60,819 nt of DNA from an uncultured Butyrivibrio sp. (GTDB lineage Bacteria > Bacillota > Clostridia > Lachnospirales > Lachnospiraceae), in contig CAMNOS010000003.1 of NCBI GenBank assembly GCA_946546925.1, positions 1-60,819 on the forward strand. The letters run 5' to 3'. Position 1 is the stretch's first letter, and each line of letters starts with the position of its first letter. Below are positions 17,457 through 23,585 of this stretch, in pieces. The translations under genes and the position numbers were made by a program. Below the pieces are notes generated by a model. That model was not told where the DNA came from and did no database searches. It saw only the letters and a list, made by a program, of their open reading frames with translations.

Positions 17457-18014
17457 TCATCTGTAGTAATCGTTCTCAGCTTTCTGCAGGAGCTTGGCTG
17501 CCTGTATCTCATCATTGACATCAGACAAAAACTGATAGTTGTGGGGATCCGATATAAACTCAAGAAAATCTGAGGCTTCCTTGGTCGTGAGATTCTGTAT
17601 CTTGGTGAGATACTCAAAGATCTCCTCTCTGGTCTTGCCCTCATTGATTGCTCTGTCCACTATGTCAAACAAAACCATAAATCTGCGCATGCGCACGCGG
17701 GCATTTATCTGATGAAGTTCGATAAAAATGGAAGTCACGAAGATAATCGCAGAGGTAGAGAGAATCATGAAACCGACACCATAAATAGTAAGCCCCAATT
17801 TTAGATTAAGGACTCCTGCGGTCAGACCCGATATGGAAAACACCATCATGGAAGTAATAAGAATTACTAACCTTGCCTTGTTTCTGGTCTTATCTGTCAG
17901 CTCCATCAGCCGTACAGCCACTCCGAATACCACGTAAAAAACCAGTGAAAAGGCAATCCCCACATAAGCTATATTGAGCATGAAGTTCATCCCCCTATAC
18001 ATTAATTCTATCAA
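17457..18014 (-). CDS. Hypothetical membrane protein
   Basis: 185-aa ORF, several N-terminal TM segments, charged C-terminus. Confidence 0.7.
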   Translation of the reverse strand: MIELMYRGMNFMLNIAYVGIAFSLVFYVVFGVAVRLMELTDKTRNKARLVILITSMMVFSISGLTAGVLNLKLGLTIYGVGFMILSTSAIIFVTSIFIELHQINARVRMRRFMVLFDIVDRAINEGKTREEIFEYLTKIQNLTTKEASDFLEFISDPHNYQFLSDVNDEIQAAKLLQKAENDYYR

Positions 18015-18114: not shown

Positions 18115-18533
18115 ACATAGGTTGTCAGTTATTGTCAGACATCAAAAAGTAAGACGATAGCGGGTGTTTGTACCATATAGCAGATTTTGACATGATAGGG
18201 GACCAGTATTATTTTTATACCTGTGGGGGCTCAATTCAAAAAAGACTTCGTACAGTTACAAATATTAGATGGTGTCATTTTATATTGCGCACCATCTAAT
18301 AGTCCGCATATCCTTTTTGTACCATATAGATAGTTTCAGAGCGCTTTGCCCCCAAAATGTCTAGTCCTGGAGATGCTGCAGAAAATTCTGATTGATTTCA
18401 AATTGGGGGCTCATTACAAAAAAATCCCTATGGCGTACACTGCATTGTGTGCAATAGATCCATAGGGATTAAAGATTTGTATTTTTCAGTGGATTTTGTA
18501 ACTGTGAGAGGTGTTTTTTGAGATTGACCCCCA
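18115..18533 (+). repeat. Left copy of a ~420 bp structured inverted repeat
   Basis: Reverse complement of 23151-23585; about 258 bp around 18166-18423 identical by eye; contains two hairpin modules bounded by GGGGG/CCCCC. Confidence 0.92.
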
Positions 18534-18559
18534 AATCGCATTTTATGGATCTGAGAAGA

Positions 18560-19273
18560 TCACCCCACTCCGTGTGCCCGGTTATATCCGGTGCAGACAA
18601 GATTAGTATTGGTGATCAGTATGTGCCAGGCAATAAAAGGTCCGATGCCACATGCAAACTGGCCGAGAAGCATCCAGAGCAGGATTGTTGTACCATTCTC
18701 TGTTACGGTAAATCCGTATCTTCCTGCATTTACAGCAAGTCTGTTGCCAACCTTATAATACCAGTAGTAACAGTAAATTCCGCAGGTTACTATACTCAGA
18801 AGAAGAAATATCAAAAGTCCCGGGGTCTCTTCTCCGTCGCCATCGCAGGCGGTGTTGATGTCCCTGATGATCTGGTACATGAAGATATACCAGTAAATAC
18901 CACAAGTGATGATGCTGAGAACAATAAACATCAGAAGCGTCCTGTCGGTGCGCAGCGGCAATACACCGTAGGGCTGATTATATGTAAATCCGTTACCCGC
19001 ACCGCCTTTTGATGTGTAACTTCCTGAAAACGATCCGGCACCGCTGTTGCCTGAAAATGAACCATTATAGCCATTTCCTGAAAATGATCCATCAGAGCTG
19101 TTCCCCGAATAGGAGACGCCTGGATTTGGATCCGAAGAAGCGCCCTCATTACTCATATTTATCGTGTCATTATAGACAAATCCCTTTATATCCCCTGTAT
19201 CCACGGGAGTTCCGCAATTCGGGCAGTACTTCACTCCGTCTTCAATCTGTGTTCCACAATTACTACAAAACAT
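18560..19273 (-). CDS. Zinc-ribbon / DUF4234-like membrane protein
   Basis: MFCSNCGTQIEDGVKYCPNCGTP zinc ribbon; LLMFIVLSIITCGIYWYIFMYQIIRDIN DUF4234-like segments. Confidence 0.83.
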   Translation of the reverse strand: MFCSNCGTQIEDGVKYCPNCGTPVDTGDIKGFVYNDTINMSNEGASSDPNPGVSYSGNSSDGSFSGNGYNGSFSGNSGAGSFSGSYTSKGGAGNGFTYNQPYGVLPLRTDRTLLMFIVLSIITCGIYWYIFMYQIIRDINTACDGDGEETPGLLIFLLLSIVTCGIYCYYWYYKVGNRLAVNAGRYGFTVTENGTTILLWMLLGQFACGIGPFIAWHILITNTNLVCTGYNRAHGVG

Positions 19274-19310
19274 TATCCTTACTCCTCCAATATAATATCA
19301 GATCATTCAC

Positions 19311-19739
19311 TCAGGACTGCAAGCCAGACAGTCTTAAGATAAGTGAAATGATCCTGTAAATAAGACCTTCCTGCGGTCTGAATGCCACAACCGTGTCATC
19401 AGGGCCAAGGAGCCTTAACAGGTATATTATAGAGAAGAGCATTATCAAAGTAAACATCCAAATGTTGTAGACTTTCCCCGGGATCCCGGCTTTGCACATA
19501 TACACCACTAGCGCGGCAGCAGGCATAAGAAATAACGGATGATAATAAAATGCACCGGCAAAATCGAGCCGCAGCAACGCAAGCCAGGCTCTTGTCATGC
19601 CGCAGCCCGGGCATGAAACTCCGGTCACGAACCTGATCGGGCACCCGATTCCCGTAATATGAAAAGTGGCATAAACAAGCACTACCGCCAAAATGGCCGG
19701 CAGTGCATTTTTGATTTTCTGCAATTTGATATTCTCCAT
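19311..19739 (-). CDS. DUF2752 family membrane protein
   Basis: GCPIRFVTGVSCPGCGMTRAWLALLRLDFAGAFYYHPLF. Confidence 0.85.
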   Translation of the reverse strand: MENIKLQKIKNALPAILAVVLVYATFHITGIGCPIRFVTGVSCPGCGMTRAWLALLRLDFAGAFYYHPLFLMPAAALVVYMCKAGIPGKVYNIWMFTLIMLFSIIYLLRLLGPDDTVVAFRPQEGLIYRIISLILRLSGLQS

Positions 19740-19752
19740 ATAAAAGAATTTA

Positions 19753-21039
19753 CTACTTGGTTTCTCTGTTTACAAATTTGTTATGAAATTTTGAATACAT
19801 GATCTTCTGGCTGCTGTACAGACTGTGGTATCCGGAGAAGGTGTAACTCAGGGCTATGGCCAGAAGATAATACGGCATTCCTTTAAATCCGAACAGTTCA
19901 AAGCAGATGAACAGTGATGATATAGGACAGTTAGTCACGCCGCAGAACAGCGCTCCCATGCCTATTGCGGCGCACAAAGCCGGATCGAATCCAAATAGCT
20001 GTGAGTAGAGACATCCGAAGGTTGCACCAATATAAAGAGCCGGGACAATCTCGCCGCCTTTGTAGCCGGCTCCAAGTGTAAGTGCCGTAAACAGTGCCTT
20101 TACTGCGAATGCGTAATAAGGCGCCTCGCCTCTGATCGCCATCTCTATGACATTCATACCGGCGCCGTTGAAGTACCTTGTGCCTGAAATAAATGTAAGA
20201 GCCGCAACAATACATCCGCCCACAAAAACTCTCAGGTATGGATTGGGAAAGAACTTTTTATATGCCTTGCCAGATGCCTTGAGAATGTCACAGAAAAGCA
20301 CACTGACAAAGGCGCACAAAAGAGCAAGAACTCCGGTAAAAAAGCCTCGATAAATGTTGAGATCCGGAACTATTGCTACTGCAAACTGCTCACCGGAAAC
20401 CCCCATGTATCCTGCAATGCTCTGAGCCATCAGCGCTGAAATGACACACGGGACAAGAGCTGAATAGTACATAACACCGACATTTTCGATTTCCATCGCC
20501 ATGAATGAAGCTGTCATCGGAGTGCCAAAGAGCGCAGAAAAAGCGGCGCTCATTCCGCACATGGTCATGATCTTGATGTCGCCCTCGCGAAGCTTTAAGA
20601 ATCTGCCCAGATTATATCCTATGCTTCCTCCCATCTGAAGGGCTGCGCTCTCTCTTCCTGTAGAACCACCAAACAGATGAGTAATCGTCGTTGATATAAA
20701 GATAAGAGGAGCCTTAACGATCGGAAGATGCTCACCCTCCTGAATCGATTTGATTATCAGATTGGTGCCCTTGTCTTCATAATCCTTACAGAGCCTGTAT
20801 AGAAATACGATCAAAAGACCTGCAAACGGAAGCCCCAGGATTATCAGATCATGAGAAGTTCTGAAGGACGTGGCATAGCCAATTGCCATGGAAAAAGCAC
20901 CCCCGGTAACACCAACTATGGCACCGGTAACGCATCCAAGGATGAGCCATCGGAACAGAACTCGCGTCTTTCCAATCACATCAAGATCTGATACATGTTC
21001 GATTATGAAGTTAACAGGGGCATGATTTTTATTTTCCAT
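19753..21039 (-). CDS. ClC-family voltage-gated chloride channel
   Basis: GGSTGRESAALQMGGSIG, GYKGGEIVPALYIGATFG, multi-TM. Confidence 0.9.
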   Translation of the reverse strand: MENKNHAPVNFIIEHVSDLDVIGKTRVLFRWLILGCVTGAIVGVTGGAFSMAIGYATSFRTSHDLIILGLPFAGLLIVFLYRLCKDYEDKGTNLIIKSIQEGEHLPIVKAPLIFISTTITHLFGGSTGRESAALQMGGSIGYNLGRFLKLREGDIKIMTMCGMSAAFSALFGTPMTASFMAMEIENVGVMYYSALVPCVISALMAQSIAGYMGVSGEQFAVAIVPDLNIYRGFFTGVLALLCAFVSVLFCDILKASGKAYKKFFPNPYLRVFVGGCIVAALTFISGTRYFNGAGMNVIEMAIRGEAPYYAFAVKALFTALTLGAGYKGGEIVPALYIGATFGCLYSQLFGFDPALCAAIGMGALFCGVTNCPISSLFICFELFGFKGMPYYLLAIALSYTFSGYHSLYSSQKIMYSKFHNKFVNRETK

Positions 21040-21099
21040 ATTAGCTTAATGATAACACGAAAAACCGTTTTAAGAGAGGCTTTAACAAAATAAAATACG

Positions 21100-21123
21100 C
21101 AGAGCCCAAAAAGCTCTGCGCTA
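21100..21123 (-). terminator. Putative hairpin terminator between 21129-21449 and the ClC gene
   Basis: GCAGAGCccaaaaaGCTCTGC. Confidence 0.4.
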
Positions 21124-21128
21124 AACTT

Positions 21129-21449
21129 CTATATGTTCTCTACTGCCCTGAACTCATCAAACTGAGGATCCTCGACAAAATCAACTATCAGATTCATCGG
21201 TGTGAGACCAATGGCCTCGTGATGGATCTGCTGTCTTATGACCATCTTTTCATAGTTGGAGAGACATTCAAATTCAGGATGTGTCTCTCTATACTTCTCA
21301 TTGAGCTGGTCAAACAGGTTATACTCCGGATCTCCCCAAGCAAATACCTCGGCTGTCTTCAAATTTGGTTTGAACGGAGAATAGCGCATTTGTGTACTAG
21401 ACATAATCAGATGCTCCTTTCTCTTTGGCAGGAAGTCTGCTTCCTGCAT
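21129..21449 (-). CDS. Small hypothetical protein
   Basis: 106-aa ORF; likely start at internal MSSTQMRYSPFKPNLKTAEVFAWGDPEYN. Confidence 0.65.
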   Translation of the reverse strand: MQEADFLPKRKEHLIMSSTQMRYSPFKPNLKTAEVFAWGDPEYNLFDQLNEKYRETHPEFECLSNYEKMVIRQQIHHEAIGLTPMNLIVDFVEDPQFDEFRAVENI

Positions 21450-21715
21450 TTGTCCAAAAACAGAAGTACAAAGTCAAAGGATAGCAAGACATTAAATTAC
21501 CCTTTAAAATCATGATATCACAGATCACAATAAAATTTCAGAAAATTTAATAGATTTTTTATACAAAATTTCATTTTTGATTTCGGTAATTATTTTCATT
21601 TATTTTTAATACTTTTTTATTTTGTCATAATTGAATGGCACAAGCAAAAGGACTAGTATTACTTCAAAGGGGCAATCGGTAATGACGTGTTGCTCCACAG
21701 ATAAACGAGGTGAAA

Positions 21716-22072
21716 ATGAGTCTTTCAGTTGGTGGAATTGGAAATGCATATGGAATGAGCTTCATCCAGCCTATGAATTACAGTGTAAAGAATCAGGCGG
21801 ATGTCTCAGATGCTTTTATTGAGACGGGAATGAGCGGCGCCATAATGAATGTACCGCCCGTGGTATATCCCAACGCCCAGGCCGTCCCTTCAGGTGATAG
21901 CGAGAGCAATCCGCTTTCTCTTTCGGCGGGCAGCGTCAGAAAATCCCAGGAGGCCAACAAGCTTTACAACGATGTGGCAGCCAGATTTGAAGGTATGACG
22001 ACAGGCTATACACAGAGCACTGAGGGAATATCCTATGGTATGAGCGGAAGCAGAGTAGATCTCTTCGCCTGA
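21716..22072 (+). CDS. Small hypothetical protein
   Basis: MSLSVGGIGNAYGMSF...; RBS-like GAGGTG upstream; hairpin with T-run downstream. Confidence 0.65.
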   Translation: MSLSVGGIGNAYGMSFIQPMNYSVKNQADVSDAFIETGMSGAIMNVPPVVYPNAQAVPSGDSESNPLSLSAGSVRKSQEANKLYNDVAARFEGMTTGYTQSTEGISYGMSGSRVDLFA

Positions 22073-22091
22073 CCATATGGAAATCAAATAC

Positions 22092-22136
22092 AAAACGCAA
22101 AAGAGCGACTACCCAGAGGATGGTCGTTTTTTTGCG
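22092..22136 (+). terminator. Rho-independent terminator-like hairpin
   Basis: AACGCAAAAgagCGACtACC...GGATGGTCGTTTTTTTGCGT. Confidence 0.6.
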
Positions 22137-22157
22137 TGGGAAAATAATTATTTGGCA

Positions 22158-22202
22158 ATCTTAAACAAATCTTAAGAATTTTCGACGGTAAATCTTAAGA
22201 AT
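22158..22202. promoter_or_regulatory. Phased direct repeats (operator-like)
   Basis: ATCTTAAACAA / ATCTTAAGAAT / 12 nt / ATCTTAAGAAT upstream of 22326; perfect 14-mer AAATCTTAAGAATT at 22167-22180 and 22190-22203. Confidence 0.5.
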
Positions 22203-22325
22203 TATCTGCTAGTATTTCTTTTGTGCAGTTCTGCACTTTCTTGGCATATCGCCGGAAAATCATTTTTTACAGTATTGCGATGCCGGCGGCTATGGCCATT
22301 GTGGCATCCAAAAGAAAGGACAAGT

Positions 22326-23114
22326 ATGAATATAATTAGTAAGCTGGAGGCAGAGAAAGCTCGCTTGGAGTCGCAAATTGCCAGGGAAACCTATGACTTC
22401 GAGATGGCGAATTATCCTGAGGGCCGCCTGAATATCAAACAGGCTGGAAAGTATTACAAAATGTATCATGTATATAGTACCCCGACTGGCACAAAAAGGA
22501 CTTATATCAAGAAGAAAAACATAGACCTGGCCCAGTGTCTTGCTCAGAAGGCATACAAAAAAACTTCTATCCAGGCTCATAAGAAGGAATTGCAGGCTAT
22601 AAATGCATATCTTAGATATTATCCCAGAAAGTCGCCGGATGACTACTTTAGGAATTCTTCTGAATACAAAAGACTGCTTGAGGATTTCATTCCTATATCT
22701 GAAGCATATAATGATTGGGCGTGTGAAGAGTATGAACGCAATCCGGAGTACCCGGAACGGCTGATTTATCCGACCATGAAAGGTGATATGGTCCGTTCAA
22801 AATCAGAAGCGATGATAGCCGATGAATTCTACAGGCGTGGGATTCCATACAGATATGAGTACAAGACTACAATTGGTGGATATGATGTGTATCCGGATTT
22901 TACTATCATTGACCCAGTGTCCGGAAAGACTTACATTTGGGAACATTTTGGCAAGATGGACGACGATGATTATGTTAACAAATGTATCTGGAAGCTGCGC
23001 TTGTACCTGAGCAATGGCTATATTCCGCAAGTCAGTCTGTTGACGACTTATGAAACCGGGATGGACCCACTCACCTCTGTCAGAGTAGTTGAGACAATAG
23101 ACCAGTTTTTCTAG
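22326..23114 (+). CDS. Solo PD-(D/E)XK-like nuclease-domain protein
   Basis: RSKSEAMIADEFYRRGIPYRYEYKT...VYPDFTIIDPVSGKTYIWEHFGKMDDDDYVNKCIWKLRLYLSNGYIP: E...D...ExH arrangement after a coiled-coil N-terminus; RBS AAAGGA before ATG at 22326. Confidence 0.75.
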   Translation: MNIISKLEAEKARLESQIARETYDFEMANYPEGRLNIKQAGKYYKMYHVYSTPTGTKRTYIKKKNIDLAQCLAQKAYKKTSIQAHKKELQAINAYLRYYPRKSPDDYFRNSSEYKRLLEDFIPISEAYNDWACEEYERNPEYPERLIYPTMKGDMVRSKSEAMIADEFYRRGIPYRYEYKTTIGGYDVYPDFTIIDPVSGKTYIWEHFGKMDDDDYVNKCIWKLRLYLSNGYIPQVSLLTTYETGMDPLTSVRVVETIDQFF

Positions 23115-23150
23115 AGCGCAAAACAGGTCAAAATAGCTGGTGCAAGCACT

Positions 23151-23585
23151 TTGGGGGCCAATCTTAAAAAACACCTCTTACAGTTACAAAATCCACTGGA
23201 AAATACGAATTTATAATCCCTATGAATTGATTGTATGCAATGCAGTGTACTCCATAGGGATTTTTTTTGTAATGAGCCCCCAATTTGAAATCAATCAGAA
23301 TTTTCTGCAGCATCTCCAGGACTAGACATTTTGGGGGCAAAGCGCTCTGAAACTATCTATATGGTACAAAAAGGATATGCGGACTATTAGATGGTGCGCA
23401 ATATAAAATGACACCATCTAATATTTGTAACTGTACGAAGTCTTTTTTGAATTGAGCCCCCACAGGTATAAAAATAATACTGGTCCCCTATCATGTCAAA
23501 ATCTGCTATATGGTACAAACCCCCGCTATCGTCTTACTTTTTGATCTCTGGCTGCCTGCGTCTGACAATAACCGACAGCCTAAGT
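23151..23585 (-). repeat. Right copy of the ~420 bp structured inverted repeat
   Basis: Reverse complement of 18115-18533; carries ~14 extra nt (CTCTGGCTGCCTGC) near its outer end. Confidence 0.92.

Follow-up and report, generated by a model that had tools for sequence, protein, structure and literature searches.

The window analysed here, 60,819 nucleotides of contig CAMNOS010000003.1 (GenBank assembly GCA_946546925.1) from an uncultured Butyrivibrio sp., contains two long inverted repeats, A and B, on either side of a 4.6-kb segment. A and B are copies of a dispersed, lineage-restricted, non-coding DNA element of ~350 bp, probably either a small non-autonomous mobile element or a pair of repetitive extragenic palindromes (REPs), spread in trans. 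The family in this genome comprises six full copies (A, B and four diverged ones) and one decayed solo copy, C68. Our best reading is that the element is new, similar to miniature inverted-repeat transposable elements (MITEs) and REP pairs, and belongs to no named family. It is mobile in a weak sense: its copies are dispersed, and it is absent from three orthologous places in relatives.

The A/B inverted repeat is real and well above chance level. Positions 18136-18424 and 23262-23550 are 99% complementary over 289 nt, and 18418-18535 and 23150-23267 are 88% complementary over 118 nt. The outermost parts, 18115-18140 and 23560-23585, are also 88% complementary, and 14 bp after 18140 are absent from A. 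A first-pass annotation of the sequence had described a near-identical inverted pair of ~420 bp, as we find; its figure of 258 identical bp is close to the 268 nt without substitution measured here, and the G5...C5 brackets, two perfect hairpins, repeated TTTGTACCATATAG and opposed ACAGTTACAAA are all as it described. When A and B were aligned, 18166-18433 (268 nt) showed no substitutions and one 1-bp indel, 18434-18535 (102 nt) showed 14 substitutions, and the 5′ flank showed substitutions and the 14-bp indel. This sharp step in identity is a gene-conversion signature between two older copies, and suggests that A and B may recombine with each other. The source assembly is a draft (260 contigs, 80.6% complete), and the identical tract may be an assembly effect. 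The features of the pair are as follows.

18165..18535, plus strand: copy A of the element, 371 nt
23150..23521, minus strand: copy B of the element, 372 nt
18166..18433: homogenised (gene-conversion-like) tract in A, from the A/B alignment
23252..23520: homogenised (gene-conversion-like) tract in B, from the A/B alignment
18115..18164, plus strand: flank of A common to B (23522-23585) and absent from all other copies
18263..18301: perfect hairpin TATTAGATGGTG/CACCATCTAATA, in copies A and B only

The remaining full copies were found by a DNA search of the genome and then read. Each of them stands single.

L013:396-743 (G000:C151): full copy C151
L014:1724-2073, minus strand: full copy C256
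L015:3016-3365: full copy C96
L016:2451-2799: full copy C121

Two profiles were used to search for relatives: R1, a sequence-only profile built on the 5′ 98 nt of the element, and R2, built on the 3′ 140 nt. Over the element's own genome R1 gave six full matches, with E values of 1e-23 to 1e-26. Neither 78 other genomes of the genus nor ~390 of the order gave a convincing match, in searches that score only part of the candidates. When 85,488 species genomes and viral contigs were scanned twice for exact patterns, no relative emerged and two matches proved to be unrelated chance ones; distant relatives may escape such scans, which demand exact matches. Phage and plasmid records contained no copy by blastn, and Rfam gave no match at E<=1. 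Matches of R1 in genome G048 were rejected as copies, being a different palindromic repeat (GGGGACGGTTTTTATACCAATGGGGACGG...) that may be distantly linked to the element through TTTTTATACCNATGGGG. As to copy number and flanks among relatives, a point raised by the first-pass annotation, further copies came from the element's own genome, and the orthologous sites compared below lack it; the genus and order genomes searched supplied no convincing one.

The element consists, in order, of a 58-nt 5′ block, a left arm, a spacer of fixed length, a GGTACAC block, a short spacer and a right arm. Its first 98 nt align without gaps across the six copies, and TTTGTACCATATAG, with which the 5′ block of A begins at 18167, recurs at 18316. 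The arms, of 38-39 nt, have the form G4-5 ... AAAAAA ... ACAGTTACAAA and are mutually inverted; the core measures 285-309 bp.

18167..18223, plus strand: conserved 5′ block of A, TTTGTACCATATAG ... GGGGACC-AGTATTATTTTTATACC, indel-free in six copies
18224..18262, plus strand: left inverted arm of A, 38-39 nt, TGGGGGCTCAATTCAAAAAAGACTTCGTACAGTTACAAA
18495..18533, minus strand: right inverted arm of A, complementary to the left arm
23424..23462, minus strand: left inverted arm of B
23152..23190, plus strand: right inverted arm of B
18224..18356, minus strand: module 1 of A, an inverted copy of module 2, 26.7 bits
18399..18535, plus strand: module 2 of A, with the GTACACTGCATTGTGTGCAAT block and the right arm
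18263..18397: first spacer of A, 135 nt

The R2 profile, which models module 2, matched the reverse strand of the 5′ half in every copy, most fully in A (18224-18356) and B (23330-23462), and also matched the decayed solo module C68. These reverse-strand matches indicate that the element is built of two diverged modules of ~135 nt in inverted orientation, plus the 5′ block. In C96 the 5′ block resembles the tail of a third module. The first-pass annotation had seen two consecutive modules of one layout; there are two, but module 2 is module 1 inverted, and the two perfect hairpins are a peculiarity of A and B, not a family trait.

Conserved blocks showed 64-72% mean identity between unrelated copies and were almost free of gaps. 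The first spacer is 135 nt long in A and B and 111, 110, 111 and 111 nt in the other four copies, and first spacers are no more similar to each other than shuffled sequences, C256/C121 being a marginal exception. The second spacer is 30 nt, gap-free and nearly random in sequence. From the five independent copies it looks as though spacer length is constrained and spacer sequence is not.

Three sites could be compared with orthologous places in relatives. At the site of A, the gap between P1 and DUF4234 is 546 bp here versus 110-197 bp in genomes G005, G021 and G060. At the site of C256, the aligned ends of ApbE and AKR lie 627 bp apart in this genome versus 168 bp in G060, and G005 and G021 have a different palindrome present. 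At the site of C151, the region upstream of the orthologous gene in G009 has no copy. Absence of the element from these three places means that it was gained in its own lineage or lost in the others; its presence in its own lineage only favours gain.

The long palindrome at the ApbE-AKR spot (GACACGGGGACGGTTCT...AGAACCGTCCCCGTG; L095, G005:C21:41700-42200, and L096, G021:C37:55000-55450) has arms that are wholly different between G005 and G021, each almost perfectly self-complementary, and similar palindromes occur in G048 (L040, L041). The arm sequences suggest that they may be corrected by template switching.

Relatives keep the order and orientation of the genes around and between A and B: LIV-binding protein, P1, DUF4234, DUF2752, CLC, Hpt and EAL. 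Some relatives are without DUF2752 or DUF4234, and the small genes (106 aa, 120 aa and PD-(D/E)XK) move and flip. Only the present orientation of the 18.5-23.15 kb segment was seen in relatives. As repeat-free relatives have the same gene order, the segment did not arrive flanked by the copies and appears uninverted in this genome. The 4.6-kb segment was accordingly rejected as an accessory island, which is what the first-pass annotation had called it, and synteny of its core genes likewise rejects a composite transposon with A and B as ends. The same annotation had suggested that the intervening DNA might be invertible; the order and orientation P1-DUF4234-DUF2752-CLC-Hpt-EAL in repeat-free relatives lend this no support.

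On the reading of a small element spread in trans, the conserved blocks would be putative sites bound by a trans-acting recombinase or transposase, and this enzyme would have spread the element into intergenic DNA. Spacer length might be kept because the bound complex requires that geometry. A and B may have arisen by a local duplication that carried ~50 bp of flank, and a later RecA-type exchange between the inverted copies could then have homogenised the middle of the pair.

Several observations weigh against this reading. No target-site duplication (5-7 nt) was found at the ends of the six copies. A profile of the arms, run over 1.83 Mb of the genome, found 13 arms of known copies and nothing else convincing, and R1 over the whole assembly revealed no autonomous partner. 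A conserved block of 58 nt lies outside the left arm, so that the arms are terminal at the 3′ end only. Sequence-unrelated spacers are unexpected in a MITE, since MITE copies usually have a common interior. Absence in relatives could also reflect loss, the comparison stopping short of a precise empty site. The partner may have been lost, may be missing from the incomplete assembly, or may work via other sequences. The sole Y1 transposase piece in the assembly is an ordinary IS200-type TnpA fragment at a contig end; its flanks are without element ends, and IS200 TnpA was rejected as the mobiliser. Of the PD-(D/E)XK genes beside B and C121, considered as partners, the window gene was also rejected, because its homologues in G005 and G060 stand at the same locus without the element. 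Genes adjoining the copies have no function in common.

The fixed-length, sequence-free spacers are the feature that this reading explains poorly. They would fit an arrangement in which each copy is a fixed frame round a spacer whose length is set (110-111 bp in four copies) and whose sequence is exchangeable or drifts freely. The element would then act as a DNA scaffold that is bound by protein and constant in geometry, whether mobile or domesticated, and would differ from known MITEs and REPs. We regard such a scaffold as rather improbable, and prefer the small mobile element or REP pair.

The other explanations differ in what they take the arms and blocks to be. If the family were a multicopy structured RNA, the arms would close it as a long helix and the copies would differ in target through their variable interior, as in paralogous small RNA families. 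In each of the six copies the imperfect inverted arms do pair (89.8% of cells, with six pairs changed on both sides), and compared with shuffles A (z -6.9), C121 (-4.0) and C256 (-3.1) fold better, but C96 (-1.7) and C151 (-0.7) are not clearly above them. Most of the observed values for arm pairing were reached by 15-18 of 500 shuffles, and cognate arms paired no better than arms of different copies (13/120 permutations; 43/120 for the variable part). Pairing of the interior with the second spacer was rejected for the same lack of cognate preference. Spacers of the four C copies had no excess structure (z -0.9 to +0.5), fourteen aligned modules gave zero consensus RNA pairs, Rfam was blank as noted above, and no conserved promoter or terminator block was seen by eye outside the copies. 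A coding function in a shared frame was rejected, since stops occur in every frame and no open frame is common to the copies. The features common to the copies are conserved DNA blocks and inverted arms; RNA structure beyond the arms is not supported by these comparisons, and a structured RNA is unlikely. Of the first-pass proposal of a mobile or structured non-coding element, the mobile part thus survives in the weak sense given above (dispersed copies, three orthologous absences), and the structured part weakly, in that the arms pair, with no cognate preference and no consensus pairs.

A chromosomal site bound by a host protein with a role in organisation, segregation or regulation would account for blocks at fixed spacing with free sequence between them: the 110-111-nt and 30-nt spacers hold their length with random sequence, which would suit distances read on duplex DNA, and four copies each precede a co-directional gene by ~160-210 bp. 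A and B are not so placed, however, the neighbouring genes are functionally unrelated, and no copies were found in related genomes, whereas host sites usually persist; we consider a host site to have only a small chance of being correct. Tn3-type terminal repeats begin GGGG. The element could be a Tn3-type miniature element (TIME), with arms that are terminal repeats of this type and are recognised for movement by a Tn3 transposase: they are 38-39 bp long with a GGGG start, and the core of 285-309 bp may be set beside the published 38-bp repeats and 262 bp (PMC4133298). Against this, target duplications of 5-6 bp were not found, the left arm has a conserved block beyond it, and a Tn3 transposase gene was not seen, although no profile search was aimed at one; this origin is very unlikely. 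If A and B bounded an invertible switch, or a composite transposon with the 4.6-kb segment as its cargo, this would agree with their inverted orientation, the 268 substitution-free nt and the gene-conversion signature. Such a role is scarcely credible given that the core genes of the segment have the same order and orientation in repeat-free relatives and that C151, C256, C96 and C121 are single.

Some neighbouring genes and repeats were also characterised. Window positions 22326-23111 (plus strand) encode a 262-aa protein without a Pfam or NCBIfam match. Its C-terminal half resembles PADLOC PDC-S68 (E 8.7e-29), with a weak match to HEAT_CxxC_PD-DEXK; the protein likely carries a PD-(D/E)XK-type nuclease domain. 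Its homologues in G005 and G060 are at the same locus in opposite orientation. Direct repeats AAATCTTAAGAATT(T/A)TC lie upstream of this gene at 22167-22206, and a similar CTTAAGA repeat is found in L016, downstream of copy C121 and upstream of the adjoining PDDEXK_2 gene; these repeats are promoter-like. At 17460-18014 (minus strand) is a membrane protein conserved in the genus, weakly similar to the SLATT proteins found in DRT defence systems (E 0.003 in PADLOC). In L013, a tandem repeat of ~36 nt (GAGATTCTTCCRATATCCTGTCTTTTGAAAATA) occupies 770-860, immediately after copy C151. Upstream of C151, L013 1-330 is repeated inside the locus, with pieces recurring in G009, G006 and G003; ARAGORN found no tRNA in it.

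The element adds a repeat family to a bacterial group in which the searches found no relative of it. It also illustrates that genes may be flanked by a striking inverted pair that is no switch but two dispersed, sequence-exchanging copies, and its length-constrained, sequence-free spacers predict a multi-site DNA-protein complex.

Among known systems, bacterial MITEs include Correia/NEMIS, RUP and ERIC (reviewed in PMC2229807). Like them, the element is short (below ~600 bp), non-coding and intergenic, has inverted arms and several dispersed copies in one lineage, and is absent from orthologous places in relatives; unlike them, it has no target duplication, known parent, 5′-terminal arm or common interior. 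TIMEs have 38-bp repeats, a length of 262 bp and direct repeats of 5 or 6 bp at the target, and can pair around DNA (PMC4133298). The element shares with them 38-bp inverted repeats, a match in length only, and ~260-300 bp between outer ends; it differs in having no 5-6-bp direct repeats or recognised Tn3 partner and, from TIME-COMP, in that the A-B segment is ancestral. The resemblance of 38-bp arms starting GGGG is a lead only. Inverted module pairs, G-rich ends, intergenic location and a solo module recall REP pairs, bacterial interspersed mosaic elements and the RAYT or TIRYT systems (PMC3733652), although the module is ~135 nt as opposed to the 20-40 bp of REPs, and copies are few. No RAYT transposase gene linked to the element was found, the assembly holding only the IS200-type TnpA fragment without element ends. 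For the repeats bcr1-bcr18 of the Bacillus cereus group the mobiliser is unknown, and a TTTAT motif has been reported for their mobility (PMC6542083). By description only, the element is like these repeats, which are 100-400 bp long, lineage-specific and dispersed, with mobile features.

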